Source: an uncultured Bacillota bacterium (GTDB taxonomy: Bacteria > Bacillota_I > Bacilli_A > RFN20 > CAG-288). Taken from it: DNA of 50,335 nt. A model generated the notes under the pieces. It did not search any database and was not told where the DNA came from. It saw only the letters and a program-made list of their open reading frames with translations. Positions within the stretch are counted from its first letter, which is position 1; every line of letters starts with the position of its first letter. Position numbers and translations under genes: made by a program. The stretch lies in NCBI GenBank assembly GCA_949299015.1, contig CASFYT010000003.1, positions 1 through 50,335 on the forward strand. Direction: 5' to 3'. This document shows positions 4,083 to 41,932 of this stretch, one piece after another.

Positions 4083-4220
4083 GCCTTTTCCAAGCCGCAG
4101 GAAAAGGGATCTTTCGAGGGGGGAGGTGGAATGTTCCATCGTTTTCCGGCAATTGATGCACCAATATGGGAAAAGCGTCCTGTATCTTCTCTCCTCTGTC
4201 CTTTTTTGCAATGAAAAACC

Positions 4221-4226
4221 TATAAT
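4221..4226 (+). promoter_or_regulatory. -10 box for the 4252/4416 genes
   Basis: A perfect TATAAT followed after 10 nt by AAAGGAG and an ATG at 4252. The -35 region is not well matched. This is the only evident promoter for the ABC-like gene at 4416. Confidence 0.5.
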
Positions 4227-4251
4227 ATTCATAGCCAAAGGAGAAAAGCCG

Positions 4252-4419
4252 ATGAAGCAAAGATTTGGGAAGGAACCGTCCTTTTCTCGTCCCACGGCGC
4301 TTCCCCTGTTCCAGGAGAGAGGAAATCCATCTTTCCGACACCCCTTGACCCGGCCGTCAAGTCCCGGGGTCCACACCAATGGAGGCAGTGTCCTTTCGCA
4401 AAGGAGGAAAATGGCATGA
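4252..4419 (+). CDS. Possible 55-aa leader ORF upstream of the ABC-like gene
   Basis: Begins MKQRFGKEPSFSR and ends QRRKMA; the peptide is basic and proline-rich, with no similarity I recognise. In favour: a perfect -10 box at 4221, a strong AAAGGAG site 8 nt or so before the ATG, and a stop that overlaps the next start as ATGA (4416-4419), as in translational coupling. Against: codon use differs from neighbouring genes and the sequence looks like no folded domain. It may be a leader peptide controlling the downstream gene or simply a transcribed leader. Confidence 0.4.
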   Translation: MKQRFGKEPSFSRPTALPLFQERGNPSFRHPLTRPSSPGVHTNGGSVLSQRRKMA

Positions 4420-6977
4420 TCGCATATCGTCCAGAGACAATGAATTCCGATAAAAATGAGACATCTTCTCTCCCCAATGTTGGCTTTGTTCTTATCGATG
4501 AAAATGAAGCCATCCGATTGCTTGATGCCATCAAAGGAGTTGATTCCGGAAAGGACATCCTTTCTATCGACGGCAAGGACGTCGCTTCGATGCCTCCAGA
4601 GGAAAGGGCAAGGAACATTGCCCTGGCCGATGAAAAGTACGCCCCGCTGCTGAACGTTTCGATCCTGGAGAACGTCACGCTCTCCTATCAAAGCTCGACG
4701 AGGGTCACTCCGGAGGAATGCAGCCGTGGGATGAAGGCGCTCGAAGCCGTCGGTCTGGAAGGCAAGGCGGGATGTCTTCCCTATCGTTTCGGCCTCGAAA
4801 CGCAGAGGATGGTTCGCCTTGCCCGCGCCCTCGCCCAGGAGACTCCTGTCCTCCTGATCCATTTCGACCTGGAAGAGGAAGAGGAGAGGCGCATGGCAAC
4901 CCTGCTGCGTCCTCTTGCCGATTGTCGCCTGATTCTTTTCACCTGCAGGAACGTCTCCTCTCTTCGCGAGGAGAAGGACCTCGTCCTGGCATCGATTGAA
5001 AAAGCTGCGGCGGCTCCGAGCCCTCAGAAGACGGAAAACAGCGATCTGTCTTCGAAGGGACAAAGAGGAAAGAAGCACCTTTGGAGGCCGATCTCCATCG
5101 GACTCCGGACGTTGAACAAAAGCCTTTCGACCATCGCCGCCCTCTTTCTTGTCGCCTTTTCCTTCTCCTTCGGCGCCTTCGTCGTCAACACCGTCTCCTT
5201 CGACCAAAGCGATGCCATGTCTCAGCTCATCCAGAAAAGAGACATCCCGCACTTTGCCAAGGAAGGAAATGTCAGCGAGGAGATCCTCGAGAAGGTCGAC
5301 GCCATCGATTCGGGACGAAACCATCTTGCCTTCCTGAACGATGCCTTCGCCTATCCGGATCCTCTTTCCGAATACCCCCTCCTGACCGTCGCGCTGTACA
5401 ACGACGACCTGTTCTTCCCAAAGGACGAGCAGTCCGATCAAAGCCGGATCGTCTCCGGCCGAAAGCCCCTCTTCGAAAACGACGTTCTCATTTCATACAG
5501 CCTGATGAAAGAGTTTCGTCAAAACGGCTTCTACAACCCGCTGACCAATGAGCAAACCTATCCGACAGAGAAAGAAATCATCGGCCTTCCCCTCTTCCCT
5601 TCGGCAATCGATCGCTACTATTCCAGGAAGGATCAAGAACCGTTCCTCATCTGCGGAGTTCTCAGCGAGGTGGCGTCCCGGGACGATTTCCTCCGTGCCG
5701 ATTGCTACGTTTCGGAAGCGGGAAAGGAATGGCTGAAGACGGAATTCTCCACCAAATTTTATTGCGACGAATTCGATAGCGCACAGCCATTCGCCGCCTA
5801 TGACGAAAACGGATACCACCTGTTCTTCGAGGAAGGAAAGACGACGCTTCTTCCGGGAGAGGTCCTGGTCGGACTGAGTTCCTCCTTCTATCCCAGATTG
5901 TTCGAGGCCTATGAGGAACCCCTCAAGATGGAGATTTCTGCCGAGAACAGCGCCAACGGAGTCCGAGAGTTCTACACCGACTCCTACCTCTTCTTCGAAG
6001 CCCTGTACAACAATGCCGCCTCCTACGTCGCCAATCGATACTGGGAGGAAGCCTTCCGGGACCAGTCCTTCCCCATCGATTCCGAGGCCGAAACGTACTA
6101 TGCGAAACAGGGCCTGGAGGTTCCGGAAACCCTCCCCGAAAGTGTCAAGCCGAAGATCTATGCCTCCTATCTCCTCGATCGATTCCAAGACAGAAAATAC
6201 TACACGCCCCATTTCTCCGAACTGGTGAACGTCTACTGGGCCTGCCTTCTGGACAGCGTCGACGGCCTTACGGCAAGAAAACCGTTCATGGAAGTCGAAG
6301 CGTCCCGCAGTCTGCCCCCTCTCAAAGTGGTCGGGTTCTCTCTCATGGTGAACCCGGACAGAAGGCCTTACAGCAATGACTACGATCGGTCCTTTACTCT
6401 ATCGGAAGAAGATCTTCGGGCGATGGGGATGCATCCGCAGAACTCCTCCATCCGCTTCGATGTCCCATACGACTCCAACCGCCTTCTCTCCCTCCTGAAG
6501 GCGACGGAGAGCCTCGAGTTTTCCGGCGGCGATTCCGCATCCCGAGCCTTGTTTTACCTCCATGGTTCCGAGAGCGACATCCTCTACTCGACCCTCGGCC
6601 ATCTCCCCATCGTCCTTCAGATCGCCATCGCCGTCCTCCTCGTCCTTCCCCTTGCACTGGCGTTCGCCAGGACCTATCAGGATGCCAAGCAGAAGCGGCA
6701 GAAGGTCGAAACCCTCCAATCCATCGGATGGAGCCGGTCCAAGGTCTTCTCCTACTTCCACGGTTCCTGGGGTCTGATCACCCTCGCCTTTCTCCTTCTT
6801 TCCGTTCTTCTCCATGTCCTGGGAATCCTCCTCTTCAACTTCTACAGTCCCCTCATCATGCCCTTGTCCTTCCTTTCGCTCCTCGTTCCCGTCGGCGGCT
6901 TCCTCCTTCTGTGGCTCACCACGTTCCTGCCCGCCCTCGCGAAGCGCATCCGGAAGCGGAAGGCCGGACGCAACTGA
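4416..6977 (+). CDS. FtsX-type permease fused to a degenerate ABC ATPase domain
   Basis: 853 residues. Residues 20-200 align by eye to an FtsE/MacB-type ATPase domain, but every catalytic motif is lost. The Walker A region reads VLIDENEAIRLL (about 25-36), with no GKS/T; the Q-loop region reads ALADEKYAPLLN; the signature is RFGLETQRM (124-132) instead of LSGGQ; Walker B reads VLLIHFD; and the switch histidine position reads LFTCRN. The ILENVTL and RLARALA blocks remain. A membrane helix follows at about 237-260, then a large extracytoplasmic domain and three C-terminal helices (about 718-850), the FtsX topology. Start: AAGGAGG 8 nt upstream. It probably cannot hydrolyse ATP, so it may pair with an active partner or act as a sensor. 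Codons at 4416-4560 are unusually AT-rich. Confidence 0.75.
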   Translation: MIAYRPETMNSDKNETSSLPNVGFVLIDENEAIRLLDAIKGVDSGKDILSIDGKDVASMPPEERARNIALADEKYAPLLNVSILENVTLSYQSSTRVTPEECSRGMKALEAVGLEGKAGCLPYRFGLETQRMVRLARALAQETPVLLIHFDLEEEEERRMATLLRPLADCRLILFTCRNVSSLREEKDLVLASIEKAAAAPSPQKTENSDLSSKGQRGKKHLWRPISIGLRTLNKSLSTIAALFLVAFSFSFGAFVVNTVSFDQSDAMSQLIQKRDIPHFAKEGNVSEEILEKVDAIDSGRNHLAFLNDAFAYPDPLSEYPLLTVALYNDDLFFPKDEQSDQSRIVSGRKPLFENDVLISYSLMKEFRQNGFYNPLTNEQTYPTEKEIIGLPLFPSAIDRYYSRKDQEPFLICGVLSEVASRDDFLRADCYVSEAGKEWLKTEFSTKFYCDEFDSAQPFAAYDENGYHLFFEEGKTTLLPGEVLVGLSSSFYPRLFEAYEEPLKMEISAENSANGVREFYTDSYLFFEALYNNAASYVANRYWEEAFRDQSFPIDSEAETYYAKQGLEVPETLPESVKPKIYASYLLDRFQDRKYYTPHFSELVNVYWACLLDSVDGLTARKPFMEVEASRSLPPLKVVGFSLMVNPDRRPYSNDYDRSFTLSEEDLRAMGMHPQNSSIRFDVPYDSNRLLSLLKATESLEFSGGDSASRALFYLHGSESDILYSTLGHLPIVLQIAIAVLLVLPLALAFARTYQDAKQKRQKVETLQSIGWSRSKVFSYFHGSWGLITLAFLLLSVLLHVLGILLFNFYSPLIMPLSFLSLLVPVGGFLLLWLTTFLPALAKRIRKRKAGRN

Positions 6978-7098
6978 CGTCTGTCCCTCTCCGAAGCACG
7001 AAATCCCTTCCGATTCGGACTCTTGTTCAAAACAGAAGGAAACTTCCTGCCGCCGGTCCAGGCAAGACGACTTTCTGATTGTATTTACCGAGGAAACA

Positions 7099-7104
7099 TA
7101 TAAT
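7099..7104 (+). promoter_or_regulatory. -10 box of the yitT-gltX operon
   Basis: A perfect TATAAT 33 nt before the yitT start. No consensus -35 is seen at 17 bp. The rest of the 6978-7137 gap shows no terminator or other gene. Confidence 0.45.
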
Positions 7105-7137
7105 ATATAGAGGTCAAACTTTTGAGGTTCAGCGCAC

Positions 7138-27238: not shown

Positions 27239-29737
27239 CTACTGGCGCGTCAGGACCGTCCCTGCGGTCGGATAGATCCAGGAAACGTCCTCGACGACCG
27301 TCAAGGTCGAGCTGTCCGCGCCCGGCGTCAGCGTCAGCGTGACAGGATTTCCATCGTTATCGTACGTCTGGAGAGTCACGACTCCGTCTTCTCCGATGGC
27401 ATAGGACTGCGCCTCCACGAAGCCTTCCTGCCAAGAGCTGTTGGGGACCATCTCCGTCGTTCCGTAGAGGATCCGCATCCGCGCATGGAGGGCGTCGACG
27501 AAGGAGATCTCCAGGCGATAGCTATCGCCGTCCCGTTCGAAGGTCCCTGCGTAGGTGTAGCCGATGTAGTCGTTCTCCGCCTCGGTCCTTTCGGTGACGA
27601 CGTAGGTGGACTCGCCCAGCTCGACGGTGATCATCGTTCCGCCCTGAACGAGTTGGATCGTCCCCGGAGCCAGGATGGTGTAGGAGTAGCTCTCCCCCGC
27701 AAGGGTCGCGTTTCCCGAGCCGTCGAGGACGAGGTCGCCCTCCGCTCCCGTATACGTCCCCTGGATACCGTCGAGGATGACGCGGTTGTTCTGTCCGCCC
27801 TCGCCCGTATAGCCGACTTCGCAGAGGAGGTTGCCCTCCGGATCCTTGACCAGGTAGTGGGCGTTGGCGTCGGTGACCTTCTCTCCCTCGAGGAACTCGA
27901 TCGTCGCATCCAGCTCGTAATGGTCCTCGCCCAGAATCGTCCCGTTGTAGTCGACGAAGGCCGAGGCGTAGAGGGCGTCGTCGCGATAGTACTGGACGGC
28001 GATGTAGGAATTGTTTCCGAAGATCTCGTAGTCCATGGTGTAGAGGCTGTCGGCATCGGCGGGATCCTGCTTCTTCACGGCGAAGATGTTGTCGTTGCTC
28101 GTCAGGCTGGTGAAGTTGTAGTGGCTGAAGATGATCTTGTCGCCGTAGGCGAAGATGCTGTCGGCCTCCTCGCCTTCCGGCGAGGCCATCAGGGCCGTTC
28201 CCGGCCCCTCGGCATTGGTCGCCGAATCGATGATGAAGTTCTTTCCGCCCGACATCGTTCCGTCCGGAGTAATCGTGAAGTTGTAGCTCGAGTTCCCGAC
28301 CGGCACGCCCGTTTCCGCCTTGCCGTTATAGAGGTTGTTCCCCCGATAGGTTCCGACGAAGGGGTAGCCGGCGAACTTCGTCATGTTGCTCTCCACGACG
28401 GTGATAGTCGTATTTCCTTCGGCGACCGGCATCGTGAAGGAGTAGTAGCCGTCCTCGTTGGTGCCCGTCTCCAGCAGGTCGATGGATTCGTCGTAATAGG
28501 CGTCCTCTTCCCTAAAGGTGACTTTCAGGGAACGGATGCCCCAGGTCTCGTCGACGCCGTCGACCCGGACGAAGACCTCCGTGTCGGCGACCGCCTCCTC
28601 CACCGGAACATAGCTTCCCTCCTCGTCCTTCTGATAGACGGAGACCGTCAGATGCTCGGAGGAGACGAGGGAGAGCGGACGATACAACGGAGTGGTGACC
28701 GGAACGAGATGGATCAGACGAGCCGGCATCGTGAAGGTCGCCTCCACCGTGTAGGTTCCCGCCACGGCCTCGACGACTTCTCCGGTCTCCTGGATCAGCA
28801 GGCCCGTGACGGTCTCGTAGTCCGTCGAGCGCATGACGATGCGGACCTCCGCGCCGAATTCGGCGATGCCTTCGCGGCAGGATTCCTCCTGGCTCGTGCC
28901 GGACCGCGTCTGATAGATGCCGGTAATGAGGCTGCTGTCATAGAGGATCTCGAAGCTAGAACGAGTGGTCAAGGTGCGGATCTCGACGGCACTTTCCGGC
29001 ATGATGAACTCATAGTAGGTCTTTCCATCCTCGACCGATGTCGTGAAGTCGACGGCCGGATGTCCGAAGCCTTCCGAGGTGATCTCCATGCCCTGGACAT
29101 TGAAGCCCGGCTTGACGATCAGGGAGAAACGGACTATCGATCCCACCGCCGCCTGGGTTCCGACGCCGACAAGCTCGACGGCGTAGTCGGAGGCGTTCTC
29201 GATGGATTGATAGGTGACGCCTTCCACCGTCCTCGCCCGGACCTCGATCGTGCAGTCCTCTTCCGGCATCACGAAGTAGTATTCCCCGAGGCCGTTGACG
29301 CCGCAGTGGACGCTGCCGACCTGAACGGAGTCGAGGACGACTTCGCTCTCGTCGTATTCGATCGTGAAGTGGACGACCGATCCTTCCTCCGCTTCCGCCG
29401 GAGCGGTCACCGTCACCGTATCGGGTGCCGAGACGGAGATGCCGTGAATCGTGTCGGGAAGAGAGGATGAGGAGGAAGAAGACGAACTCGTGGAAGAATC
29501 GTCAGAGGAACTCGAGGAGCTTGTGGAATCGCTCGTCGAGGAAGAGGAGCTCAAAGAGGACGAACTGGACGTGGAGGTCGAATCCTCACCGCTCGAGCTC
29601 GAAGAGGAGCTGGTCGAAGAGGAGCTGGTCGAGGACCCGGTCGAACTCGGCAAGGTCGAAGAAGTAGGAGTGGCGCAGGCTCCCAGGGACAGGCCGACCA
29701 AGAGAAGAAGGCTCGTCAACAATTTTCTGCTTTTCAT
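27239..29737 (-). CDS. Large serine-linker lipoprotein with beta-repeat domains
   Basis: 832 residues. The signal peptide (MKSRKLLTSLLLLVGLS) ends in the lipobox LGAC, so Cys20 should be lipidated and the protein anchored on the outer face of the membrane. Residues 25-93 are almost entirely Ser, Thr, Asp and Gly. The rest contains repeated blocks ending in an aromatic-x-F-x-MP motif (YYFVMPEEDCTIEV, YYEFIMPESAVEI, TFTMPARLIHLV, YYSFTMPVAEGN), as in the divergent InlB B-repeat (Flg_new_2) class of surface repeats. The C-terminal third has two or three related beta blocks (GTYRGNNLYNG, GTYTGAEGDLVLDGSG, GYTYAGTFERDGDSY). Ligand unknown. It follows 29756 by 18 nt in the same operon. Confidence 0.85.
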   Translation of the reverse strand: MKSRKLLTSLLLLVGLSLGACATPTSSTLPSSTGSSTSSSSTSSSSSSSGEDSTSTSSSSSLSSSSSTSDSTSSSSSSDDSSTSSSSSSSSSLPDTIHGISVSAPDTVTVTAPAEAEEGSVVHFTIEYDESEVVLDSVQVGSVHCGVNGLGEYYFVMPEEDCTIEVRARTVEGVTYQSIENASDYAVELVGVGTQAAVGSIVRFSLIVKPGFNVQGMEITSEGFGHPAVDFTTSVEDGKTYYEFIMPESAVEIRTLTTRSSFEILYDSSLITGIYQTRSGTSQEESCREGIAEFGAEVRIVMRSTDYETVTGLLIQETGEVVEAVAGTYTVEATFTMPARLIHLVPVTTPLYRPLSLVSSEHLTVSVYQKDEEGSYVPVEEAVADTEVFVRVDGVDETWGIRSLKVTFREEDAYYDESIDLLETGTNEDGYYSFTMPVAEGNTTITVVESNMTKFAGYPFVGTYRGNNLYNGKAETGVPVGNSSYNFTITPDGTMSGGKNFIIDSATNAEGPGTALMASPEGEEADSIFAYGDKIIFSHYNFTSLTSNDNIFAVKKQDPADADSLYTMDYEIFGNNSYIAVQYYRDDALYASAFVDYNGTILGEDHYELDATIEFLEGEKVTDANAHYLVKDPEGNLLCEVGYTGEGGQNNRVILDGIQGTYTGAEGDLVLDGSGNATLAGESYSYTILAPGTIQLVQGGTMITVELGESTYVVTERTEAENDYIGYTYAGTFERDGDSYRLEISFVDALHARMRILYGTTEMVPNSSWQEGFVEAQSYAIGEDGVVTLQTYDNDGNPVTLTLTPGADSSTLTVVEDVSWIYPTAGTVLTRQ

Positions 29738-29755
29738 GTTCTTTCACTCCTTTCC

Positions 29756-31810
29756 CTAGGCCGCCGGGGCATAGACCCCGCCGACGATGCTTCCCAGAGC
29801 CACGCCATCGACCGTCGCCGTCACCGTCGTGGCATCCAAGATCGTCGTTCCGCCTTCCAGGACGTACTCGACGCCGGAGAGAACCTGCTCTGGATTCTCC
29901 TCGTCGAAGAAGATGACGAAGCGGGCCTTCGACTGTTCGGCGCCGTCGACGACGGAGTAGATCTCGTAGAAACCGACGTCGGCATTGTCGTCTTGATCCA
30001 TGTCGTCGGAGTAAAGACAGCGGGCATGAAGCTCCGTTCCGTCCACCTTGGCGTAGACGTTGGTATCATCATTCGTCAAGTTATCATAATAGGAAGAGAA
30101 GTAGAAACCGTCTCCATAGACACCGACTTTTCCGTCCGTCCAGTAGATGGTTCCGGTACCATCATCGTTTTCCTCGATGCGGACGATCCAATCACCTTTG
30201 CTCGACTGTCCATTCGAATCGATCGAGAAGCTCAGAGTCAGCTCTCGATTGTTGGCCCACGAGGAATCCATGATGTTCGCGTAGACATACTCTCCGACGA
30301 AGCTTTCGCCCTCGAAGCGGGTCGCATCGTCCTCCAGGACCGTGATGACGTAATCGGTTCCGTTCTCGACGATGAAGGAATAATAGCCGTCTCCTTCCTC
30401 GTTGACGTCCTGGATGTAATCCGCCTCGCCCTGGGCGTTGACGAAGTCGATTGAAAGGGCGCCCAGCGCGATTCCCGCTGCGCTGGTATCTTCCACATGG
30501 ACGTAGACTTCTTCGTCCGGGAAGACACCGTTTTCAAGGGCGACGTATTCGCCTTCGACCAGGCTCCAGAGGGAGAGATGGAGATTCGCCGAATCGACCA
30601 GCTGGATGGTCTGGCGGGACGCCTCCTCGACGGAGATCGTCATGCTGGCGCAGTTGACCATGGTGAAGTAGTGACCATATTCATCCTCACGGACCGTCGC
30701 CGTGATTTCGCTTCCGTAGAGGCTGGTGTAGCGGACAAAGAACTGATACGGCCGATAGTCGGGATCGTCGCTTTCGTAATCGAGGTAGACCCTCTGCCCC
30801 GGAACGGCCTTCTGGTCCTCGATCGGGGCCAAGGCGCCCGTCTCTTCGTCCAGGAGGGAGGGGATGATCGTCACGTGAGAACCCTGCTCGATCGTCAGCG
30901 GAATGCGGTTTTCCTCCGTCACGGCCTCCAGGGTGATGTCCTGAGCGGGCATCGTGAAGGTGCAGGTCTTCGTCCCCTCGACGTCCTCGGCCACGATGGT
31001 CTGGTCCGTCTCGACGATGTGGATGCCCGTGGCGAGCAGGGCGTCGGTGTCCTTCAGCTCCACCGTGACCGTATGGCCATAGTAGGCGTGGAGGCGGGAG
31101 GTGATGTCGACCTGTTCCCCGTCGATCGTCTCGTAGATGGCCGAGACGTTCGTCCGCTCGGTCGTGATGGAAAACAGCTTCACTTCCTTTTCGGCAAGGA
31201 CTCCGATGTCCCGGGCGAGGTCTTCCGGTGCCTGGAACGTGTAGACGTCGGCAGCGTATTCGACGTCCAGGGGCGTCTCGATCGCCGTCCCTTCCTCGTT
31301 GAGGATGCCGACTTCGACGCCGGTGATCGTATAGGGCGATCCGGGAGGAAGTCCCAGGGAGAAGGAGACCTCCTCTCCGGCGTCGAAGCCCAAGGCGTCA
31401 TAGCCGTAGAGCTCGGTCTCCGCATCCAGGTTGACAAGGCGATAGTCGCCCTGGATCACGGCGTCCAGCGTCAGGACGACGTCTTCTCCCGGCATCTCGA
31501 AGTAGAACGAATCGGCGTCGATCGACGCGGCCCTGGAGCCGTTGACCAGAAGGGCGTCGATCTGGACCTTGGCCGCGTCGTACGTCAGCTCGACATCGAC
31601 GATTTCTCCCGGCAAGGCCGAAGAGGCGACGTCGACCGTGACATCTGACGGAACGTCTGTCGCGATGTTGTAAGGGGTTGCATCGGACAGTTCCTCTCCG
31701 TTCTGCCTCGCACCAGAAGTATCGAGGTGACAGCCGGAGAGCGTCAGAGCAGCGCACACTGCGGCGGACAGAGTCGCGAGTCTGACGAGATTTCTCGACT
31801 TTTTAACCAT
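29756..31810 (-). CDS. Lipoprotein with beta-repeat domains, no serine linker
   Basis: 684 residues. The signal peptide runs to lipobox LSGC (Cys27). Unlike its neighbours it lacks the serine tract. Its body is related to the downstream 832-aa lipoprotein: FYFEMPGEDVVLTLDA, CTFTMPAQDITLEAV and a shared segment that ends DGYYSFIVENGTDYVITVLEDD, then ATRFEGESFVGEYVYAN, parallels GYYSFTMPVAEGN... and TKFAGYPFVGTYRGNN in 27239. The pair probably arose by duplication. AAAGGAG precedes the ATG and a good promoter is at 31843-31871. Codons at about 30055-30260 are AT-rich. Confidence 0.85.
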   Translation of the reverse strand: MVKKSRNLVRLATLSAAVCAALTLSGCHLDTSGARQNGEELSDATPYNIATDVPSDVTVDVASSALPGEIVDVELTYDAAKVQIDALLVNGSRAASIDADSFYFEMPGEDVVLTLDAVIQGDYRLVNLDAETELYGYDALGFDAGEEVSFSLGLPPGSPYTITGVEVGILNEEGTAIETPLDVEYAADVYTFQAPEDLARDIGVLAEKEVKLFSITTERTNVSAIYETIDGEQVDITSRLHAYYGHTVTVELKDTDALLATGIHIVETDQTIVAEDVEGTKTCTFTMPAQDITLEAVTEENRIPLTIEQGSHVTIIPSLLDEETGALAPIEDQKAVPGQRVYLDYESDDPDYRPYQFFVRYTSLYGSEITATVREDEYGHYFTMVNCASMTISVEEASRQTIQLVDSANLHLSLWSLVEGEYVALENGVFPDEEVYVHVEDTSAAGIALGALSIDFVNAQGEADYIQDVNEEGDGYYSFIVENGTDYVITVLEDDATRFEGESFVGEYVYANIMDSSWANNRELTLSFSIDSNGQSSKGDWIVRIEENDDGTGTIYWTDGKVGVYGDGFYFSSYYDNLTNDDTNVYAKVDGTELHARCLYSDDMDQDDNADVGFYEIYSVVDGAEQSKARFVIFFDEENPEQVLSGVEYVLEGGTTILDATTVTATVDGVALGSIVGGVYAPAA

Positions 31811-32877: not shown

Positions 32878-35559
32878 ATGAAAAAAGGATTGAAAGCCCT
32901 TGGACTTCTCTCCCTCATGCTGACCTTGGCCGCATGCCAGGGAACGAGTTCCCTCTCCTCCTCTTCGGGCGCCCCCTCGAACTCCACCAGCTCGAGCGGA
33001 GGCGATAGCTCCTCCAGTTCCTCTTCGAGCCCCAGCAGCTCGTCCTCCACGCCCGACCCCGTTGAGGAGACCTACCGCGTCCTCCTGAGCGTCCCGACGG
33101 GCGTCAGCGCGCACCTCGACAAGGAAGAGGCCGCGGAAGGAGAGACGGTCACCCTGACGATCGACACCATCGAGAGCGGCTATAGCGTCACGGAAGTCCT
33201 CCTCCAGAGCTATTCCACAACGCCGCTTACTTCCGAAGACGGAAAGACCTATACGTTCACGATGCCCGACCGTTCCGTCACGGTCGTCATCAACATCCAG
33301 GTCGAGGGCGACATCACCCTCGTCGGCGACGTCATCGCGGCCCTGACCCTCAATCCGGAAACCGGAATCTACGAGGCCCGCAACGTCAAGGTCGACGTCG
33401 ACACGGAGATGGCCTACTTCAGCTACCAGGTCAAGGATGCCGAAGGAAATACGACGCGCCTGGATTCCTCGGCCGTCGACGAGAAGAAGTGCTTCGCCGG
33501 CCTTCAGTACTACTACACGACCGACCCCAACGGATACAGCCTCCAGATCGCCTCGGGCAGCACGTACGACTTCTTCTACGATCCCGCCTCGGAAAGGCCC
33601 TGCTACGTCAAGAGGGTTCATGTCGACGTCCTTCCCAACAACGTCGACAGCCTCTACAACCTCTTCTACGGAAACATCCGCTCCGAATCCACGGTCATGA
33701 CGGACAACCTGACCTCCATGGACCTGACGATCCGCGAGGCCTCGGAAAACCGCCTGAACCACGTGACGATGCAGAAGTATGCCGACAACACCACCTATAT
33801 GAAGGTCGAGGACCAGTTCAACGACCGGGACTTCTACGTCTACAAGCACCTCGACGAGGAAAGGAACCTCTTCTCCGTCGTCGATTCCTATGCGACGACC
33901 ATGGGAAGCGATGACGACACGAGGGAGAGCGGGAGGACGGACGCCGCCTATTCGGCAAACTACGACATCATCGAAAGCGGAGAATCCGGACGCTTCGAGA
34001 GAACGAGGAGCGAAGCCGAGCACGAACTGAACACCACCGCCCATCAGATGCGTTTCATCGAAGAGACCATCATGTATTCCTATCGTGTCGGTACATCCCC
34101 CGATTCGGTCGATGAAATCTCCTATTCCAACGTCTCCATTGCTTCGGAAGAAACGGAAAATGGATTCAAAACCGTCATCGATACCACCGTCGAATACGAT
34201 TCGCAGGAAGGCATCTATACCTCCGAAAGGCACGAAGGATACGTCTTCGACGTCGTCCTCGGCTTCTCGGCCAAGGGCGAGCTGACTTCCATCGACTACG
34301 AAGAGCTCCACTACACGGAAGACCAGTGGGACTTCTCCGCCCATGCCCCGCTCCTGGGTCAGGAAGGAATGGGTTCCACGGCCAAGAGCATCGAAGGAAC
34401 CTACGTCTATGACGGAACGATGGAAGAGAACCTCCCCTCCAGCGAGTTCAATCCGGAGGACTACTTCATCCAGTCCTTCGAGACCGTCCACTTCTACAAC
34501 CCGGAGACGGAGATGCCGGAGGACGACGGAAAGAACTACCTCCACTACAACGACGACGTCATGGTCACGGGAACGGACAGCGACGACGAGGCCGAGCACG
34601 TCGAGGTCTCCTACCTTCCGACGACGGCCCTGGACCTCTGGCAGTACGCCCCGACGGAATCGAGCGACGACAGCATCATCACCTCGACCATCTACAACAC
34701 CTACAACGAGATGACCTGCGTCGGCATCGGCGACGCGACCGTCACCCTGACCAACCACACCAAGGAGAGCGGCATCCGCCACGACGTCGACATCACCGTC
34801 ACTGCCACGCGGAAGTTCCACAGCTTCTCCCTCAACGGCACGACCAACCCGTTGGTCACCTCCACGACGTCGGCCAACATCTACGCCGGCACGACGGAAG
34901 CCTACGACGTCATCGTCACGCCGGACTCGGCGCCCTGCATCTATACGGCGACGGTCGATCCCGCCCACGCCGACATTCTTCAGGTCGTCTCCACCGCCAA
35001 CCATCAGCTGGTCCTGAGCTCTCCGGCCGACGCCGACATCGCGGAGCCGACGGAAGTCCTCGTCCAGATCGACTCGGACTGGGCCGATCCCGAGGTTCCT
35101 TCCCTCCAGGACTTCTACCTCTCCATCACGGTCATCCCCGCCCAGTACTCCCCCTTGGGTGACTGGACCTCGACGGACGACACGTCTGACACCGAAATCC
35201 ACTTCACCAGCGACGAATACCAGGGCGACTACAACGACTATTACTACGATTCCACGCCGAAGACGGGAACGATCGTCGACAACTACGGCGGACAGATCGA
35301 CACCTACTACTTCTACTATCAGTTCGCCCACGGCGCCCTGACGGCGACGGTCTACGACATGGAGACGACGGGGACGTCCTTCCCCTTCACGGTCGACGTC
35401 GTCACGCTTGAGCTCACCTACAACGCGGCAAGCGACACCGTCGACTGCTGCATGTACTACATGGAGGCGACCGAGGACTGGGAAGCCGACTATTACGGCA
35501 TCATCGGCAGCATCGACGAGGAGAGCTATCTCCTTCCCATCACCTTCGAAAGAGCCTAG
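32878..35559 (+). CDS. Large serine-linker lipoprotein
   Basis: 893 residues. Signal peptide MKKGLKALGLLSLMLT and lipobox LAAC (Cys20), then a Ser-rich linker to about residue 60. The first folded part has one TYTFTMPDRSVTVVI block of the same repeat type as in the minus-strand lipoproteins. The middle (about 150-600) is not recognised. GIGDATVTLTNHT followed by HDVDITVTA (about 619-642) looks like the end of a Big_2-type Ig domain. The C-terminus is rich in Tyr, Asp and Thr (DEYQGDYNDYYYDS). RBS AAGAAAGG is present; gap to 32851 is 26 nt. AT-rich codons at 34050-34205. Confidence 0.82.
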   Translation: MKKGLKALGLLSLMLTLAACQGTSSLSSSSGAPSNSTSSSGGDSSSSSSSSPSSSSSTPDPVEETYRVLLSVPTGVSAHLDKEEAAEGETVTLTIDTIESGYSVTEVLLQSYSTTPLTSEDGKTYTFTMPDRSVTVVINIQVEGDITLVGDVIAALTLNPETGIYEARNVKVDVDTEMAYFSYQVKDAEGNTTRLDSSAVDEKKCFAGLQYYYTTDPNGYSLQIASGSTYDFFYDPASERPCYVKRVHVDVLPNNVDSLYNLFYGNIRSESTVMTDNLTSMDLTIREASENRLNHVTMQKYADNTTYMKVEDQFNDRDFYVYKHLDEERNLFSVVDSYATTMGSDDDTRESGRTDAAYSANYDIIESGESGRFERTRSEAEHELNTTAHQMRFIEETIMYSYRVGTSPDSVDEISYSNVSIASEETENGFKTVIDTTVEYDSQEGIYTSERHEGYVFDVVLGFSAKGELTSIDYEELHYTEDQWDFSAHAPLLGQEGMGSTAKSIEGTYVYDGTMEENLPSSEFNPEDYFIQSFETVHFYNPETEMPEDDGKNYLHYNDDVMVTGTDSDDEAEHVEVSYLPTTALDLWQYAPTESSDDSIITSTIYNTYNEMTCVGIGDATVTLTNHTKESGIRHDVDITVTATRKFHSFSLNGTTNPLVTSTTSANIYAGTTEAYDVIVTPDSAPCIYTATVDPAHADILQVVSTANHQLVLSSPADADIAEPTEVLVQIDSDWADPEVPSLQDFYLSITVIPAQYSPLGDWTSTDDTSDTEIHFTSDEYQGDYNDYYYDSTPKTGTIVDNYGGQIDTYYFYYQFAHGALTATVYDMETTGTSFPFTVDVVTLELTYNAASDTVDCCMYYMEATEDWEADYYGIIGSIDEESYLLPITFERA

Positions 35560-35565
35560 TCCGAA

Positions 35566-36927
35566 ATGTCGAAAAGGAATCTTCTCCCGCTCCTGGCGCT
35601 TCCCCTGCTCCTGACCGGATGCGAAACGGCTTCCTCTTCCTCCTCTTCCTCTTCGTCGTCCGCCTCCTCTTCGACGTCGTCGTCTTCCCCCTTCGTGCCG
35701 CCGAACGACGTCAAGTCCTACCTCCAGTACCTTGCCAGCGAAAAGAACTACACCTTCACGGTCGAGACGTCCGACCGGTCCTACCTGATGACGTACTACT
35801 TCACGGAGAACGTCGTCGGAAGCACGTCCCTGGACAGCCCGGAATACACCAGCCTCCTCATCCAGGACGAAGAGGGCGTCTATCCCCTCAACTACTACGA
35901 GGGATCCCTCGTCTCGGGAGAATACCTCGCCGACGACAACGGGGACCGCTATCGGGACGTCTGGGAAATCTCCAGCACGCTCCACGGTAGAGAGGAGGAC
36001 TTCCTCGCCTCCCTGCCTTCGGGCGAGACGTCCTACACGATCGAGAGCAAGGCCTATCGCATCGCCTTCCTGGAGATGCTGGGCTACGACAGCACCACCA
36101 TCCTCGACTTCTCGGACATCCAGGCCTCCGTCGAAGGAAACGGCCTCGTCCTCTCCTTCACCCTGGAGGATGAGGACCTGTTCCTCACCGTCCAGGACCT
36201 TCGGACGACGACCGTCCCCCTCTACGAGGAATTCGTGGCGGAGGGCGGAACCGCCTATGAGCCCGCCGTGGCGCTCACGGAGACGCGGCGCCTCTTCAAG
36301 ACCGACCAGATGATCATCAGCCAGAGCGCCTCCGGCTACACGCTCCGGGAGCTGCTCCATCCCAACTACTTCTTCACGAGCATGTCCGACGAGATGTTCT
36401 CGGGCTTCGTCGCCATCGACCGTCCGGAAGACGACCTCGTCGGCGTCTATTCGGCCATCGGGACCGGTTCCTTCGACGCGGACTCGACCGAGGGCGTGAC
36501 CGGCGTCCAGATCAGCACCTCGGCCCCCATCTGGGACATCCCCGACATGACCCAGTTCTACCGCTATCCCTCCGCCCTGCTTCTCTGGGACAACCTGCAG
36601 TTCCTCTCCGAAGGACTGGACGAGAGCTTCTCGACCATCGTCCCCCAGCCCAGGGGCGCGGCCTACCACACCCAGGAGAGCAACATCCTCCTCGACTTCG
36701 TCACCAACTTCTCCATCGACCAGTCCTACCCCCTGACCGAGTACCTCCCGGTCTCCCTCTCCCTGGACATCGCGCTCGACGAGGAGGACAAGACCAGCGT
36801 CGTCGAGCTCTACTACCTCTATTACTATTCTCCCGACGGCTCCCAGATCCATGCCGGATACCTCCATTACTCCATCTCGGGCTTCGGGAACACGAGCATC
36901 CCGCGCCTGGACGAGCTGATCGCCTGA
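35566..36927 (+). CDS. Serine-linker lipoprotein
   Basis: 453 residues. Signal peptide MSKRNLLPLLALPLLL, lipobox LTGC (Cys19), then about 22 residues of Ser/Ala/Thr (residues 22-44) before PFVPPNDV. The mature part is rich in Tyr, Asp and Glu and is not recognised. It starts 6 nt after the 32878 gene without a convincing Shine-Dalgarno sequence, so it probably depends on coupled translation. A strong terminator follows. Confidence 0.82.
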   Translation: MSKRNLLPLLALPLLLTGCETASSSSSSSSSSASSSTSSSSPFVPPNDVKSYLQYLASEKNYTFTVETSDRSYLMTYYFTENVVGSTSLDSPEYTSLLIQDEEGVYPLNYYEGSLVSGEYLADDNGDRYRDVWEISSTLHGREEDFLASLPSGETSYTIESKAYRIAFLEMLGYDSTTILDFSDIQASVEGNGLVLSFTLEDEDLFLTVQDLRTTTVPLYEEFVAEGGTAYEPAVALTETRRLFKTDQMIISQSASGYTLRELLHPNYFFTSMSDEMFSGFVAIDRPEDDLVGVYSAIGTGSFDADSTEGVTGVQISTSAPIWDIPDMTQFYRYPSALLLWDNLQFLSEGLDESFSTIVPQPRGAAYHTQESNILLDFVTNFSIDQSYPLTEYLPVSLSLDIALDEEDKTSVVELYYLYYYSPDGSQIHAGYLHYSISGFGNTSIPRLDELIA

Positions 36928-36995: not shown

Positions 36996-37015
36996 CAGTG
37001 GGACAAAATACAGAC

Positions 37016-39697
37016 ATGTCCTTCCCAGAGAAAATGATCGAGCTGCGCCACCTCCGCAAGTCCTATCCCGAAGGAAAGGGAAGGATCGTCATCCTCAAGG
37101 ACCTTTCGCTTTCCTTTGCCGCGAAGGGGCTGGTCAGCATCCTAGGCAATTCCGGGTCGGGGAAGACGACCCTCCTCAACATCCTGTCCACGCTCGACGG
37201 CGACTACGAGGGCCAATACCTCTTCGACGGCGAGGACGTCTCCCGCTTCGACGAGAAGAGGAAGGACAGCTTCCGGAATCGGGACATCGGCTTCGTCTTC
37301 CAGGAGAGCCGACTCCTGGAGGACTTCACCGTCGAGGAGAACGTCCGCCTCGTCGCTTCCCAAGGCCCGAAGGACGTGCAGGCGAGGATGGGGCACCTCC
37401 TTTCCGAAGTCCACCTCGAGGGCAAGGGACGGAAGCGGGCCAAGGACCTTTCCGGCGGAGAGAAGCAGCGCGTCAGCATCGTCCGCGCCCTGATCAACGA
37501 TCCGGGAATCCTTCTGGCCGACGAGCCCACCGGTTCCCTGGACCAGGAGAACGGACGACTCGTGATGGAAATCCTCAAGGAGGTCTCCAAGGAGAGGCTG
37601 GTCCTGGTCGTGACGCACAACCGCGAACTGGCCCAGGAATTCTCCGACCGCATCCTGACGATTGCCGATGGCGGAATCGTCGATGACATCCAGCGAGGTC
37701 CTTCTTTGGAAGGCAACGAAAAGAAAACGAAGAAGAAAGAAAAGCCTTTTTCGTTTTCAATAAAGAAATTGCTTCATCTGTCCTCTTCCTTTCTCTTCGC
37801 GAAGAAGCTCAAGACGGCCTTGGTGAGCGTCGGCAGCGCCATCGCCATTCTTGGGCTCGGGCTCGTCCTCTCCGTCTCCTCCGGCTTCCGCGGCTATATC
37901 CGCACGCTCGAGGGGAAGCTCCTGAGCCAGATTCCGCTCACGATCGAGCAGCTGGCCATGGAAAGCGTCGGCCTCCAGTCCTTCCTCGGGGACGGATACG
38001 TCGCGGACGACGAAAGGCTCACGGCCGTCGACTCGCTCAACGATTTCTATCACATCAACACGATCACGGACGACTTTTCCTCCTTCGTGATGTCCCTGGA
38101 CGAGGACCTCTTCCGCCAGCGCCAGGTGACGCAGTCGGTCGACTTCCGGCTCCTGACCGAGGGCCGCGGGGGCGAAATCGTCACCTATTCGCAGGAACCC
38201 TCGACCTATCTCGAGTCCGTCTTCTCCGAGGTCCTGGGCCTCAAGCAGCTGCTCGACGACCGGGAATTCCTCCTGGATTCCTACGACCTGATCGCCGGGA
38301 CGTACCCTGAGCAGGCCACGGACCTCGTCCTCGTCCTACCGGAGGACAACACGCTCTCGAAGGAGCTCCTGAGCGATCTGGGGCTGAATTCCTTCCAGGA
38401 GGAAGGGGGACAGCAGTACCTCGATTACGACGACGTCCTCGCCAAGCGCTGGTCCCTCGTCCGGAACGACGACTACTACGTCGACATCACGGACGACTTC
38501 TCTCCCATCGAGGAGGACGCCATCTTCTTCAAGAAGGACTACGAGCTGAAGGCGCAGGGAAGGGCCCTGAGCGACCTCCTCGCCCTTTCCATGGATTCCG
38601 ACCAGCCGACGAGGGAGGACGTCGAGGAACTCCTTTCCTACGTCTCGATTCCCAAGGGCGTCACCATCGACCTCGACGACATCGACTTCGACGATGAGGA
38701 GGACATCCGTTCCCTCTTCCTCTCCCTGTTCCAGAAGAGGGAATTCCAGGTCTATCGTTCCCTCGACGAAGAGGAAAAGCGCGCCTATCTCGACCAGGGA
38801 AGGGGAAGGGAGGTTCGGATCTCGGGCATCCTGAAGGTCAAGCCGGACGCCTTCCTCGCTCCCCTGCGCGGCGGCATCTACTACCTTCCCTCCTTCCTGA
38901 GCCTCGTCCAGCAGGACAACGCTCCGACCCCGGTCGACAGCAACGGAAACGGAACCATCGATCCGGAGGAGGACCGTCGCTCTGCCATCGCCAAGAGCTA
39001 CGAGAACAACCTCTTCCTGACCTTCGACGGGAACATCCACGTCCACACCCGCACCATCCTCGACGATTCCCACTATGACGACGACGTCCAGGGCTACGTC
39101 GCCAACCGCGTCTCCTACGGCGTCGAGACCGGGGTCACGGGATTCTACCTCTTCCCCAAGGACTTCCAGAGCAAGGAGAAGATCCTGTCCGAGATCGACC
39201 GCTACAACGAGGAGAACGGTTCCGAGATCGTCGTCACGGACCTGACCGAGACCATCTTCTCGAACGTCGAGATGCTCGTCGACATCATCCTCAACGTCCT
39301 GGTGGTCCTGACCTCCGTCTCCCTGCTCGTCGCCATCATCCTGATCGCCTCCATCCTCTATTCCAACGTCCTGGAAAGGACGAAGGAGATCGGCCTCTTC
39401 CGCGCCCTGGGCGCCAGGAAGAGGGACGTCGGCAACGTCTTCCGCCTGATGAGCGTCTTCATCGGCCTCTTCGCCGGAGTCCTGGGTGTCGCCCTGACCT
39501 ATCTCGGGCAGGGCGTCCTCAACCTCTCCCTCTCGAGCCTGATGCCGAACTACCACCTCGAAGGCCTCTTCGCCCTGCCGCTGTGGCAGGCGCTCCTGTT
39601 GATCCTCTTTGCCGTCCTCCTCTCCTACCTCTCGTCCCTGGTCCCTTCCTTCCTCGCTTCGCGAAAGGATCCGATCCGTTCCCTCAAGGAAGAATGA
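37016..39697 (+). CDS. ABC transporter, ATPase fused to FtsX-type permease
   Basis: 893 residues from the ATG at 37016; a GTG at 36998 lies before the expected transcript start, and an ATG at 37034 is possible. The ATPase domain has all motifs: Walker A GNSGSGKTT (44-52), Q-loop FVFQESRLL, signature LSGGEKQR (145-152), Walker B LLADEPTGSLD (166-176) and switch VVTHN (about 200). One helix (about 262-285), a roughly 480-residue extracytoplasmic region and three C-terminal helices (about 750-885, starting with VDIILNVLVVLTSVSLLVAI) give the MacB/FtsX topology; QERTKEIGLFRALGARKRDV-like sequence (LERTKEIGLFRALGARKRDV) is the conserved coupling loop. Fused forms work as dimers that couple ATP use to periplasm-side or surface events. 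It sits among six lipoproteins. AT-rich codons at 37690-37785 mark the ATPase-permease junction. Weak RBS. Confidence 0.9.
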   Translation: MSFPEKMIELRHLRKSYPEGKGRIVILKDLSLSFAAKGLVSILGNSGSGKTTLLNILSTLDGDYEGQYLFDGEDVSRFDEKRKDSFRNRDIGFVFQESRLLEDFTVEENVRLVASQGPKDVQARMGHLLSEVHLEGKGRKRAKDLSGGEKQRVSIVRALINDPGILLADEPTGSLDQENGRLVMEILKEVSKERLVLVVTHNRELAQEFSDRILTIADGGIVDDIQRGPSLEGNEKKTKKKEKPFSFSIKKLLHLSSSFLFAKKLKTALVSVGSAIAILGLGLVLSVSSGFRGYIRTLEGKLLSQIPLTIEQLAMESVGLQSFLGDGYVADDERLTAVDSLNDFYHINTITDDFSSFVMSLDEDLFRQRQVTQSVDFRLLTEGRGGEIVTYSQEPSTYLESVFSEVLGLKQLLDDREFLLDSYDLIAGTYPEQATDLVLVLPEDNTLSKELLSDLGLNSFQEEGGQQYLDYDDVLAKRWSLVRNDDYYVDITDDFSPIEEDAIFFKKDYELKAQGRALSDLLALSMDSDQPTREDVEELLSYVSIPKGVTIDLDDIDFDDEEDIRSLFLSLFQKREFQVYRSLDEEEKRAYLDQGRGREVRISGILKVKPDAFLAPLRGGIYYLPSFLSLVQQDNAPTPVDSNGNGTIDPEEDRRSAIAKSYENNLFLTFDGNIHVHTRTILDDSHYDDDVQGYVANRVSYGVETGVTGFYLFPKDFQSKEKILSEIDRYNEENGSEIVVTDLTETIFSNVEMLVDIILNVLVVLTSVSLLVAIILIASILYSNVLERTKEIGLFRALGARKRDVGNVFRLMSVFIGLFAGVLGVALTYLGQGVLNLSLSSLMPNYHLEGLFALPLWQALLLILFAVLLSYLSSLVPSFLASRKDPIRSLKEE

Positions 39698-39814: not shown

Positions 39815-39874
39815 TAAATGCTTCTTTCTGACACCATACGTCCTGTAGATGTCCGAAAGACAAAGGAGAAAAGC

Positions 39875-41932
39875 ATGAAAAAGAAAAAGCTGCTGACCGC
39901 CCTTTCCCTGCTCCTCGTTTCGACGTCCCTTGCTTCCTGCGACGGAACCTCCACCCTGACCTCCTCGACTTCCACCTCCCCCAGCGGTTCCACCTCCACC
40001 TCCTCGGGCCCCTCCACGGGCAACTTCGTCACGGAGACGCTCAACAACGGCTTTTCCGTCGAGACCGGAATCCCGGCGAAGAACGGCACCATCACCGCCG
40101 CCAAGGTTGGTGAAGTCCTCGAGACGTTCGCCTCCCTCCTCTCCGGACAGGAAGTCCCGGCGGGAAGCTATGCGGAACAGGCTGAGTTCTTCGTCCCGAC
40201 CCTCCGTAATGGCGGCGTGAACGACGCCGATGCCGACCTCATCCTCTCCACCGTCGACGAAGCCGAGACCAAGGCCGCCCTGCAGGCCTTCGCCGGCATG
40301 ATGAGCGGCTCCTCCTCCATCACGCTGGAGGCCTTCCTCCAGAACCATCTCCCGGCCCTGACCTCCGCCCTGAAGACCATCCTCTCCGAACTCGACGCCG
40401 ACAAGTTCGCCGCCGTCGCGGTTCCCCTTCTCTCCATGACCATGGGAGGAGCGACCGTCGCCGATATGGACTACCGCAACATCATCAACGGCATTTCCCA
40501 CGCCAACCAGTCCCTCCTCCGGAACGCCCCAGAAGCCGTCCGTTCCTTCTTCGATGGCGTCCTGGCCCATTCGAACTTCGGAGAAATCCAGTCCGTCAAC
40601 GATTCGGAAGAAGCCCAGGAGATGGTGTGGTTCTTCGGAAGAGCGGCCTACGGAATCCTCAAGGCCGTCCTGGAGAACTTCACCGATCAGGAAATCGCCT
40701 CGATCGTCACCCTGGCGATCCAGGTCGCCAACGATCCGCAATACACCCCCACGGCGGAGACGATCCTCCCCTTGGCGAAGGCGGCCGGCAAGATCATCGA
40801 CAAGTGCTTCATGGACCGTGCGTCCTTCCACAACCTGCTCACCACGTCCATCGCCCTGACCGAGGCACAACTGGAGGCGTCGATTCCCACGAGCCTCTAT
40901 TATCAAAATCCTTCCTTCGCCTCGGAGCGACAGCTCTCGATTCCTCGCGCCCTCGCTGAGAATTCGGATTCCGTCTTCAACATCCTGAAGTTCGTCGGCG
41001 TTCTCCTTGAGAATGCCACGGAAGAGGACTTCCAGAGCATCATGACCTTCATCGGCACCCTCACCAACAACAATCCGGAGCCGGGGACGGGAGAAGCGAC
41101 CGCGCCGGACATGACCTCCGACGTCGTCCGCCTCGCCAAGATCTTCGCGACCAACCTCACCCGCTTCGGTGCGGACAACGAGGCCATCATGGACAGCTTC
41201 CTCGACGTCTTCCGCCTCCTGCCGACCATGGTGAACGGATCCATGTCGGCGAGCATCGCGGGCAGCGGAACCGGATACCGCATCGGCTACACCATCCCCG
41301 AGGCCAGCATCGACATGGACAGCGTCTCCGGACTCGTGGACGCCTTCGTCGGCTTCGCCCAGCTCGATCCCGACAACCTCACCGACGAGCAGAAGGCCGA
41401 AATCAACGCCAAGCTCCAGGCCATCTCCGCTCCCCTGACGACGGAATCCACCTTCTACTTCATCGACGTCCCGACCCGGTACGAGGTCGGTTCCACGCCG
41501 GCTCCGCTCCAGGGCCTCATCCGTCATTCCTCCAATCCCGACGCGGCGGAAGAGCTCGTCATCCCCGCTTCCGAGATTCAGAACCTCTCCACGGAGAGCG
41601 TCCGCTACGACATGGCCAGCTTCACCATCGGCCAGGAGACCATCTACTTCCCCTATTACGTCACGGATTATCCGGTCGACTGGCTCCAAATCCGCTGCGG
41701 CCTCATGGACAGCTACGAAGTCGATGGCCTTTACCAACTCGATCCTTCCGACGCCATCCAGGAAGTGGAGTACAGCGTCAGCGGTAGCAGTACCACCTAC
41801 ACCGTTCCCTTCGAGAAGCTCATCGACGCTCCGACGGAATACGTCGAGGGCGTCAACGTCTTCTACGTCCCGCTGGGCGAGGACCTCGACAACCCCGACG
41901 AATACTACGCCGTCACCTACCAGTACTACTGA
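39875..41932 (+). CDS. Serine/threonine-linker lipoprotein, helical
   Basis: 685 residues from the ATG that follows AAAGGAG. Signal peptide MKKKKLLTALSLLLVST with lipobox LASC (Cys22), then a Ser/Thr/Gly/Pro linker to about residue 52. Residues 55-480 look mostly alpha-helical with many Leu/Ala stretches (FLQNHLPALTSALKTILSEL, IIDKCFMDRASFHNLLTTSI), unlike the beta-rich lipoproteins upstream. The C-terminal 200 residues return to beta-type sequence with many Tyr. No family is recognised. Single gene between two terminators. Confidence 0.82.
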   Translation: MKKKKLLTALSLLLVSTSLASCDGTSTLTSSTSTSPSGSTSTSSGPSTGNFVTETLNNGFSVETGIPAKNGTITAAKVGEVLETFASLLSGQEVPAGSYAEQAEFFVPTLRNGGVNDADADLILSTVDEAETKAALQAFAGMMSGSSSITLEAFLQNHLPALTSALKTILSELDADKFAAVAVPLLSMTMGGATVADMDYRNIINGISHANQSLLRNAPEAVRSFFDGVLAHSNFGEIQSVNDSEEAQEMVWFFGRAAYGILKAVLENFTDQEIASIVTLAIQVANDPQYTPTAETILPLAKAAGKIIDKCFMDRASFHNLLTTSIALTEAQLEASIPTSLYYQNPSFASERQLSIPRALAENSDSVFNILKFVGVLLENATEEDFQSIMTFIGTLTNNNPEPGTGEATAPDMTSDVVRLAKIFATNLTRFGADNEAIMDSFLDVFRLLPTMVNGSMSASIAGSGTGYRIGYTIPEASIDMDSVSGLVDAFVGFAQLDPDNLTDEQKAEINAKLQAISAPLTTESTFYFIDVPTRYEVGSTPAPLQGLIRHSSNPDAAEELVIPASEIQNLSTESVRYDMASFTIGQETIYFPYYVTDYPVDWLQIRCGLMDSYEVDGLYQLDPSDAIQEVEYSVSGSSTTYTVPFEKLIDAPTEYVEGVNVFYVPLGEDLDNPDEYYAVTYQYY

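Follow-up and report, generated by a model that had tools for sequence, protein, structure and literature searches.

A MacB/FtsX-type ABC-permease fusion without catalytic ATPase motifs, and its motif-less or NBD-free relatives

Introduction

MacB, LolCDE, FtsEX and other type VII ABC proteins are understood as ATP-driven mechanotransmission machines. A canonical ABC site is composite, i.e., it consists of the Walker A and B motifs and the Q- and H-loops of one nucleotide-binding domain (NBD) and the signature of the other, and in the known degenerate-site transporters the defects are concentrated in one composite site (PMC7756269). Some type VII transporters, such as LolCE, are heterodimers, and many type VII permeases have separate ATPase subunits (PMC5985334). 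Moreover, E. coli FtsEX that does not hydrolyze ATP can still recruit EnvC and, in the presence of NlpD, still supports cell separation (PMC7343993).

Here we describe P1, a MacB/FtsX-type ABC-permease fusion of a gut bacterium. It is encoded in a stretch of 50,335 nucleotides from an uncultured Bacillota genome, hereafter called the window, which had earlier been annotated from its letters and open reading frames (the sequence-only reading). P1 is very probably an ATP-dead relative of the type VII proteins.

Results

P1 is an open gene with a complete permease part

The P1 gene starts with ATG and is open throughout (Table 1). Hydropathy showed a complete permease part with TM1, the extracytoplasmic domain and TM2-4, and Pfam FtsX matched with E 2.6e-6 (27.9 bits, cut-off 25.5). 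P1 hence has the type VII (MacB/FtsX-like) layout of TM1, extracytoplasmic domain and TM2-4 with an FtsX C-terminal domain.

A 55-aa ORF at window positions 4252-4419 (+) carries its own AAAGGAGA motif, and its stop overlaps the P1 start (ATGA); it may encode a P1-coupled leader peptide. A TATAAT lies ahead of this ORF at 4221. The promoter scan found no sigma-70-like site above chance.

Table 1. Features of the P1 locus and of the second fusion gene in the window
Feature	Position	Strand	Basis or remark
Species-specific segment between galK and yitT	4091..7137		blastn junctions vs L121, L122
Shine-Dalgarno AAAGGAGG	4400..4407	+	8 nt upstream of P1 ATG; strong ribosome-binding site
P1, pseudo-ABC / FtsX-type permease fusion, 853 aa	4416..6977	+	ORF; Pfam FtsX; NCBIfam ABC; AF2 model
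Degenerate nucleotide-binding domain, residues 1-200	4416..5015	+	alignment with 23 active NBDs; NBD-only model
Deleted Walker A site, I27-DENE (27-31); GxSGSGKTT in relatives	4494..4508	+	alignment
Signature position, FGLET for LSGGE, residues 125-129	4788..4802	+	alignment
Walker B Asp-Glu replaced by H149-F150	4860..4865	+	alignment
Switch His replaced by R178	4947..4949	+	alignment
TM1, residues 236-263	5121..5204	+	hydropathy
Large extracytoplasmic domain, residues ~264-721	5205..6578	+	profile search; permease-only phmmer; common to other dead and NBD-less members
TM2-TM4, residues 722-843, coupling-loop motif LQSIGWSRSKVF kept	6579..6944	+	hydropathy; coupling-loop profile
P2, active ABC-FtsX fusion	36998..39697	+	all motifs intact; first ATG 37016; distant relative, no partner by position

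The nucleotide-binding domain has lost all catalytic motifs

We read the motif state of P1 against 23 active relatives. This alignment shows deletions of the A-loop and of Walker A, with VLI-DENE in the place of the latter, and replacement of the Q-loop Gln by E73 and of the D-loop Asp by Glu. None of the catalytic elements of ABC ATPases was found, be it Walker A (GxxGxGKS/T), the signature (LSGGQ/E), Walker B, the Q-loop Gln or the switch His, and this loss argues against ATP-driven mechanotransmission by P1.

Homology to ABC ATPases covers residues ~20-195. NCBIfam models matched residues 33-149 (potA, E 1.3e-7; FtsE, 7e-6), and the isolated domain scored 14.2 bits with Pfam ABC_tran (PF00005), below the gathering score of 25. 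The structure models, which indicate fold compatibility and are no independent proof because their input alignments contained active ABC proteins, predict that an ABC fold is kept: the NBD-only model (mean pLDDT 83) matched ABC ATPases and FtsE in the PDB (Foldseek E down to 2.4e-12, prob 1.00), and the full-length AF2 model (overall pLDDT 67.5, NBD ~90, extracytoplasmic domain poor) had MacB as its best fold match (5gko, E 8e-13; 5lil, 1.8e-11). By descent and fold (NCBIfam potA; Foldseek), P1 thus belongs to the ABC superfamily.

The sequence-only reading had described a frame intact over 853 codons, a complete FtsX-like permease and the loss of the Walker A, Q-loop, signature, Walker B and switch residues, and was right on every point. 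The non-catalytic ABC domain that it postulated lies in an intact, translatable gene, and the structure prediction it called for returned an ABC ATPase/FtsE fold, not an unrelated one.

P1 has relatives with the same loss

A scan of the genome contigs with P1 gave no relative, and no close orthologue was found in the same genome and genus. The genome and genus search did yield another full-length copy without motifs, located on contig C7 of the P1 genome (L031:7195-9765:-, 856 aa; hereafter C7), which aligned with P1 in BLASTP over residues 18-849 against 19-856 (E 3e-15). Four more motif-less copies come from three related genomes, i.e., one from G013, two from G010 and, in the order-level search, one from G018 (L187:1782-4283:-, 833 aa). 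Walker A is absent in all six. In the genus-level loci examined we scanned ABC-FtsX fusions with their N-terminus present, setting aside frames that start inside a domain and type I exporters; the Walker A, Walker B and signature motifs were missing only from P1, C7, the G013 copy and the two G010 copies.

The NBD is missing altogether from two other intact relatives. One, L084:5246-7309:- in G019, has 687 aa with TM1 close to residue 25; the other, L175:6925-8931:+, has 668 aa and comes from a different family (G156). No ATPase gene was detected in their examined flanks. The group has the extracytoplasmic domain and the membrane helices in common, with the catalytic residues gone in six members and the NBD absent in two. 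Ribosome-binding sites precede most members. A further NBD-less copy, from the close relative G012 (L176/L217 ~780-2500, G012:C3), contains an in-frame stop and a frameshift, and the G013 frame ends after TM3, i.e., TM4 is missing; some members therefore decay, and seven of the nine copies are full-length and intact. Since a group of proteins has the same loss, P1 is no isolated wreck. The search for such relatives proposed in the sequence-only reading was hence fruitful as far as the group is concerned, but two of its copies are damaged and the closest relatives have no syntenic orthologue (see below).

Proteins of ~690 aa from other families (class level) were considered as NBD-less members and rejected, as they had intact ABC domains where the N-terminus was present. 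Plasmid records gave generic ABC matches only. An otherwise intact active ABC-FtsX gene in G003 (L177:5124-8238) shows an apparent frameshift between its NBD and permease parts. We found no description of such a group in the open-access literature searched, a scope outside which most subscription papers lie.

Permease parts link most dead and NBD-less members

To keep the degenerate domain from biasing the comparison, we removed the NBD and ran phmmer with permease parts alone. The P1 permease had its top matches in the NBD-less L084 protein (4.5e-11), C7 (4.7e-11) and the G013 copy (8.3e-11), compared with E 0.006 for the best active permease. For C7 and the G013 copy, dead or NBD-less members ranked first as well, and for L084 it was L175. 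The G010 copies found each other first and then L084, with some active proteins close behind. The best match of the G018 permease was an active protein, and its loss is therefore possibly independent. A permease closer to dead or NBD-less than to active proteins was thus found for P1, C7, the G013 copy and L084; the G010 copies and L175 gave a mixed picture, and G018 did not follow. A maximum-likelihood tree of the permease parts was saturated, with end branches of ~1.6-2.7, and did not resolve the dead proteins as one clade; it is compatible with one loss as well as with several, and we relied on the similarity ranking in its place. At lower significance, the extracytoplasmic domain of the dead group also matched some active fusions of the order, which are likely ancestors of this group.

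P1 and C7 lie at variable sites

The window DNA on both sides of P1 aligned by blastn with the closest relatives L121 and L122 (GltX 89% and 84% identical, respectively) up to position 4090 and again only from 7138. P1 is therefore a 3.0-kb lineage-specific insertion; galK and yitT are adjacent in both relatives, neither of which has a syntenic P1 orthologue. The conserved role that the sequence-only reading had assumed is not borne out at this level. C7 and its neighbour gene sit between trkA and mfd, which are adjacent in G012 and have other genes between them in G014. At the G014 site (L143:3154-4775, G014:C7) these encode a putative secreted protein and a lipoprotein, i.e., the insertion site is variable. 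A G013-type copy is absent downstream of the orthologous G011 gene as far as the contig reaches. The GC3 values of P1 (0.70) and C7 (0.52-0.55) are below those of most native window genes (~0.77-0.92), consistent with acquisition of both. The dead and NBD-less group appears small, fast-evolving and horizontally patchy.

Neighbours and candidate partners

P1 lies between galT-galK and yitT, and no partner for it is visible there. A secreted protein of 878 aa is encoded directly upstream of C7, and a homologue is found beside one G010 dead copy. Proteins of this family have ~880-900 aa and share a region of ~200 aa (G000:C7, L031:9777-12413:-; L081:9108; L135:8409-11096:-). Two of the three homologues are thus linked to dead copies, one directly upstream of C7 and one divergent from the G010 copy; the third is found in G007, at the end of a contig. 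We consider the 878-aa protein a candidate partner of C7.

Two other neighbourhoods were dismissed. A GH3 glycosidase with a two-component system stands beside the G013 and G156 copies; the orthologous cassettes of G011 and G025 have no downstream dead FtsX, the G024 contig stops at that point, and these genomes are very rich in GH3 genes. A '24,312-aa giant gene' beside a G010 copy was an artefact of an N-run. Carbohydrate genes recur near dead copies, e.g., a dead-FtsX gene (L041:5123-7159, L216) and a sugar ABC importer operon are divergently oriented, as are P1 and galK-galT, yet such genes are abundant in these genomes.

An active ABC-FtsX gene adjoining a dead copy was not found at any dead locus examined. 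The active fusion P2 of the window had been regarded by the sequence-only reading as an intact paralogue of P1. The same fused architecture and the full set of motifs are indeed present, but P2 is only a distant relative: pairwise BLASTP aligned the NBD alone (27% over 150 aa, E 3e-5), and the P2 permease was absent among the best permease matches of P1. Large putative lipoproteins with serine-rich linkers are encoded at window positions 27239-31810 (-), 32878-36927 (+) and 39818-41932 (+), two of them immediately upstream of the P2 gene. Elsewhere in the genus, tandem pairs of active ABC-FtsX genes are common (L036:4971-10461, L040, L042, L043, L050, L099) and look heterodimeric.

Constraint probably outweighs decay

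In dinucleotide-matched random sequence, ~6 stops are expected in the 200-codon N-terminal domain of P1 (P open 0.0015) and ~22 in the whole gene; none was observed in the domain. The expectation per N-terminal domain rises to 8 for C7 and to 14-20 in the low-GC genomes, and these frames are open. Neutral decay is therefore disfavoured, given open frames at 15-25% identity and 6-20 expected stops per domain. Across the six dead domains, 257 of 303 ungapped core cells are still hydrophobic (background 42%), whereas the residue of the active consensus is found in only 15 of 102 catalytic cells, of which nine belong to the L and S of LSGGQ.

P1 might still be a decaying gene, i.e., an ABC-FtsX gene that was acquired or duplicated recently, is under relaxed selection and is turning into a pseudogene, with an open frame that is transient. 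The broken G012 copy, the G013 copy without TM4 and the absence of P1 from the sister species would fit, as would a GC3 of 0.61 in the N-terminal codons of P1, compared with 0.73 in the rest and ~0.77-0.92 in most neighbours. However, a lower GC3 also fits a lower-GC donor, as for C7, and of the nine copies seven are intact over their full length although ~75-85% of their residues differ. Because the hydrophobic core is retained with the catalytic residues gone, the frames are open and P1 has a strong ribosome-binding site, we prefer a pseudo-ATPase and consider decay unlikely. P1 is probably a real, functional pseudo-ABC protein.

Discussion

The relatives that share the loss of motifs or have no NBD point to an ATP-free version of a MacB-like machine. 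As the best overall explanation we favour, with a little more than even confidence, that P1 belongs to a MacB/FtsX-type group that no longer uses ATP and would serve as a platform. How such a platform might work can be proposed only tentatively, by analogy with FtsEX: most economically, an ATP-independent membrane platform may hold an extracellular partner. P1 would form a dimer in the membrane, and its large extracytoplasmic domain would constitutively hold or position a secreted or surface partner, as ATPase-dead FtsEX recruits EnvC. The pseudo-NBD would be a folded cytosolic cap or dimer support, dispensable over evolutionary time; since NBD-less relatives exist, the cytosolic domain can be dispensed with in this lineage. 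In the C-terminal TM region, where the coupling loop that contacts the NBD is located, six of eight dead members scored below the lowest of 92 active proteins, a gap that is somewhat inflated as the same 92 proteins had trained the profile. In P1 the coupling loop LQSIGWSRSKVF is recognizable, and its pseudo-NBD may therefore still dock. The group may even represent a distinct ATP-independent class of type VII 'ABC' proteins whose ATPase domain became a structural pseudo-domain and was discarded in some lineages, with a mobile FtsX-like accessory membrane platform left behind, sometimes with its own secreted partner; we would put this at somewhat less than an even chance.

A regulatory pseudo-ATPase would act differently, i.e., P1 would enter mixed dimers and inhibit or modulate an active type VII ABC-FtsX protein. 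Several active fusions are present in the genome, and docking of the P1 NBD through the kept coupling-loop motif would suit this role. Against it, no dead locus examined adjoins an active gene, the NBD-less relatives manage without a cytosolic domain, and the P1 permease resembles dead proteins from elsewhere at least as closely as the active ones of the same genome, which makes regulation in mixed dimers quite unlikely.

The sequence-only reading had also considered P1 as one half of an asymmetric transporter. Such a heterodimer, e.g., of P1 and the 37016 protein (P2), would burn ATP at one site, and heterodimers of the LolCE type (PMC5985334) as well as the tandem active pairs of the genus could be taken as precedents. 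In known degenerate-site transporters the defects fall on one composite site (PMC7756269). P1, however, is devoid of Walker A and B, Q, H and signature alike, which would leave neither composite site canonical. As P1 has neither half of a site, it can form no canonical site as a homodimer or with an active partner, P2 included, and does not provide for the one fully canonical composite site of a degenerate-site heterodimer. Since both site halves are missing and no active gene adjoins the dead loci, with the 37016 gene 30 kb off and distantly related, we judge an asymmetric transporter improbable.

Least credible is energization in trans, where a separate ABC ATPase would displace or stack on the dead domain of P1 and drive the permease: many type VII permeases do have separate ATPase subunits (PMC5985334) and the genome has many ABC ATPases, but the folded domain of P1 would itself fill the docking surface, most dead and NBD-less members show an eroded coupling region, and no ATPase gene is nearby.

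If P1 is part of an ATP-free group, as we favour, then the series of active fusions, intact pseudo-NBDs and proteins without NBD, with related membrane and outer parts, would be a natural experiment. It would show what type VII proteins can do without ATP and how an ABC motor gets lost.

Among known systems, MacB has the same order as P1, i.e., NBD, TM1, large extracytoplasmic domain and TM2-4, and was the best match of the full-length model. Unlike MacB, P1 has no Walker A and B, Q, signature or switch residues, its extracytoplasmic domain is much larger and different, it has no adaptor gene, and the MacB equivalog of NCBIfam was not among its matches. FtsEX, the cell-division ABC complex by which wall hydrolases are recruited and activated, resembles P1 in its FtsX-like permease fold and FtsE-like NBD fold. 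It is, however, a two-gene, ATP-using and widely conserved system, whereas P1 is fused, ATP-dead and lineage-specific; with 25.8 bits against the FtsE equivalog (cut-off 264.85), P1 does not qualify as an FtsE/FtsX cell-division pair. The active ABC-FtsX fusions of the order (e.g., L033, L178, L182 and P2) have the P1 architecture but differ from the P1 group in their intact ATPase motifs and well-conserved C-terminal TM/coupling region. Degenerate-site ABC transporters such as Pdr5, ABCB2/B3 and B. subtilis RbsA/NupO have, like P1, lost catalytic residues and kept the fold. In these proteins one composite site is canonical, whereas P1 has lost elements of both.
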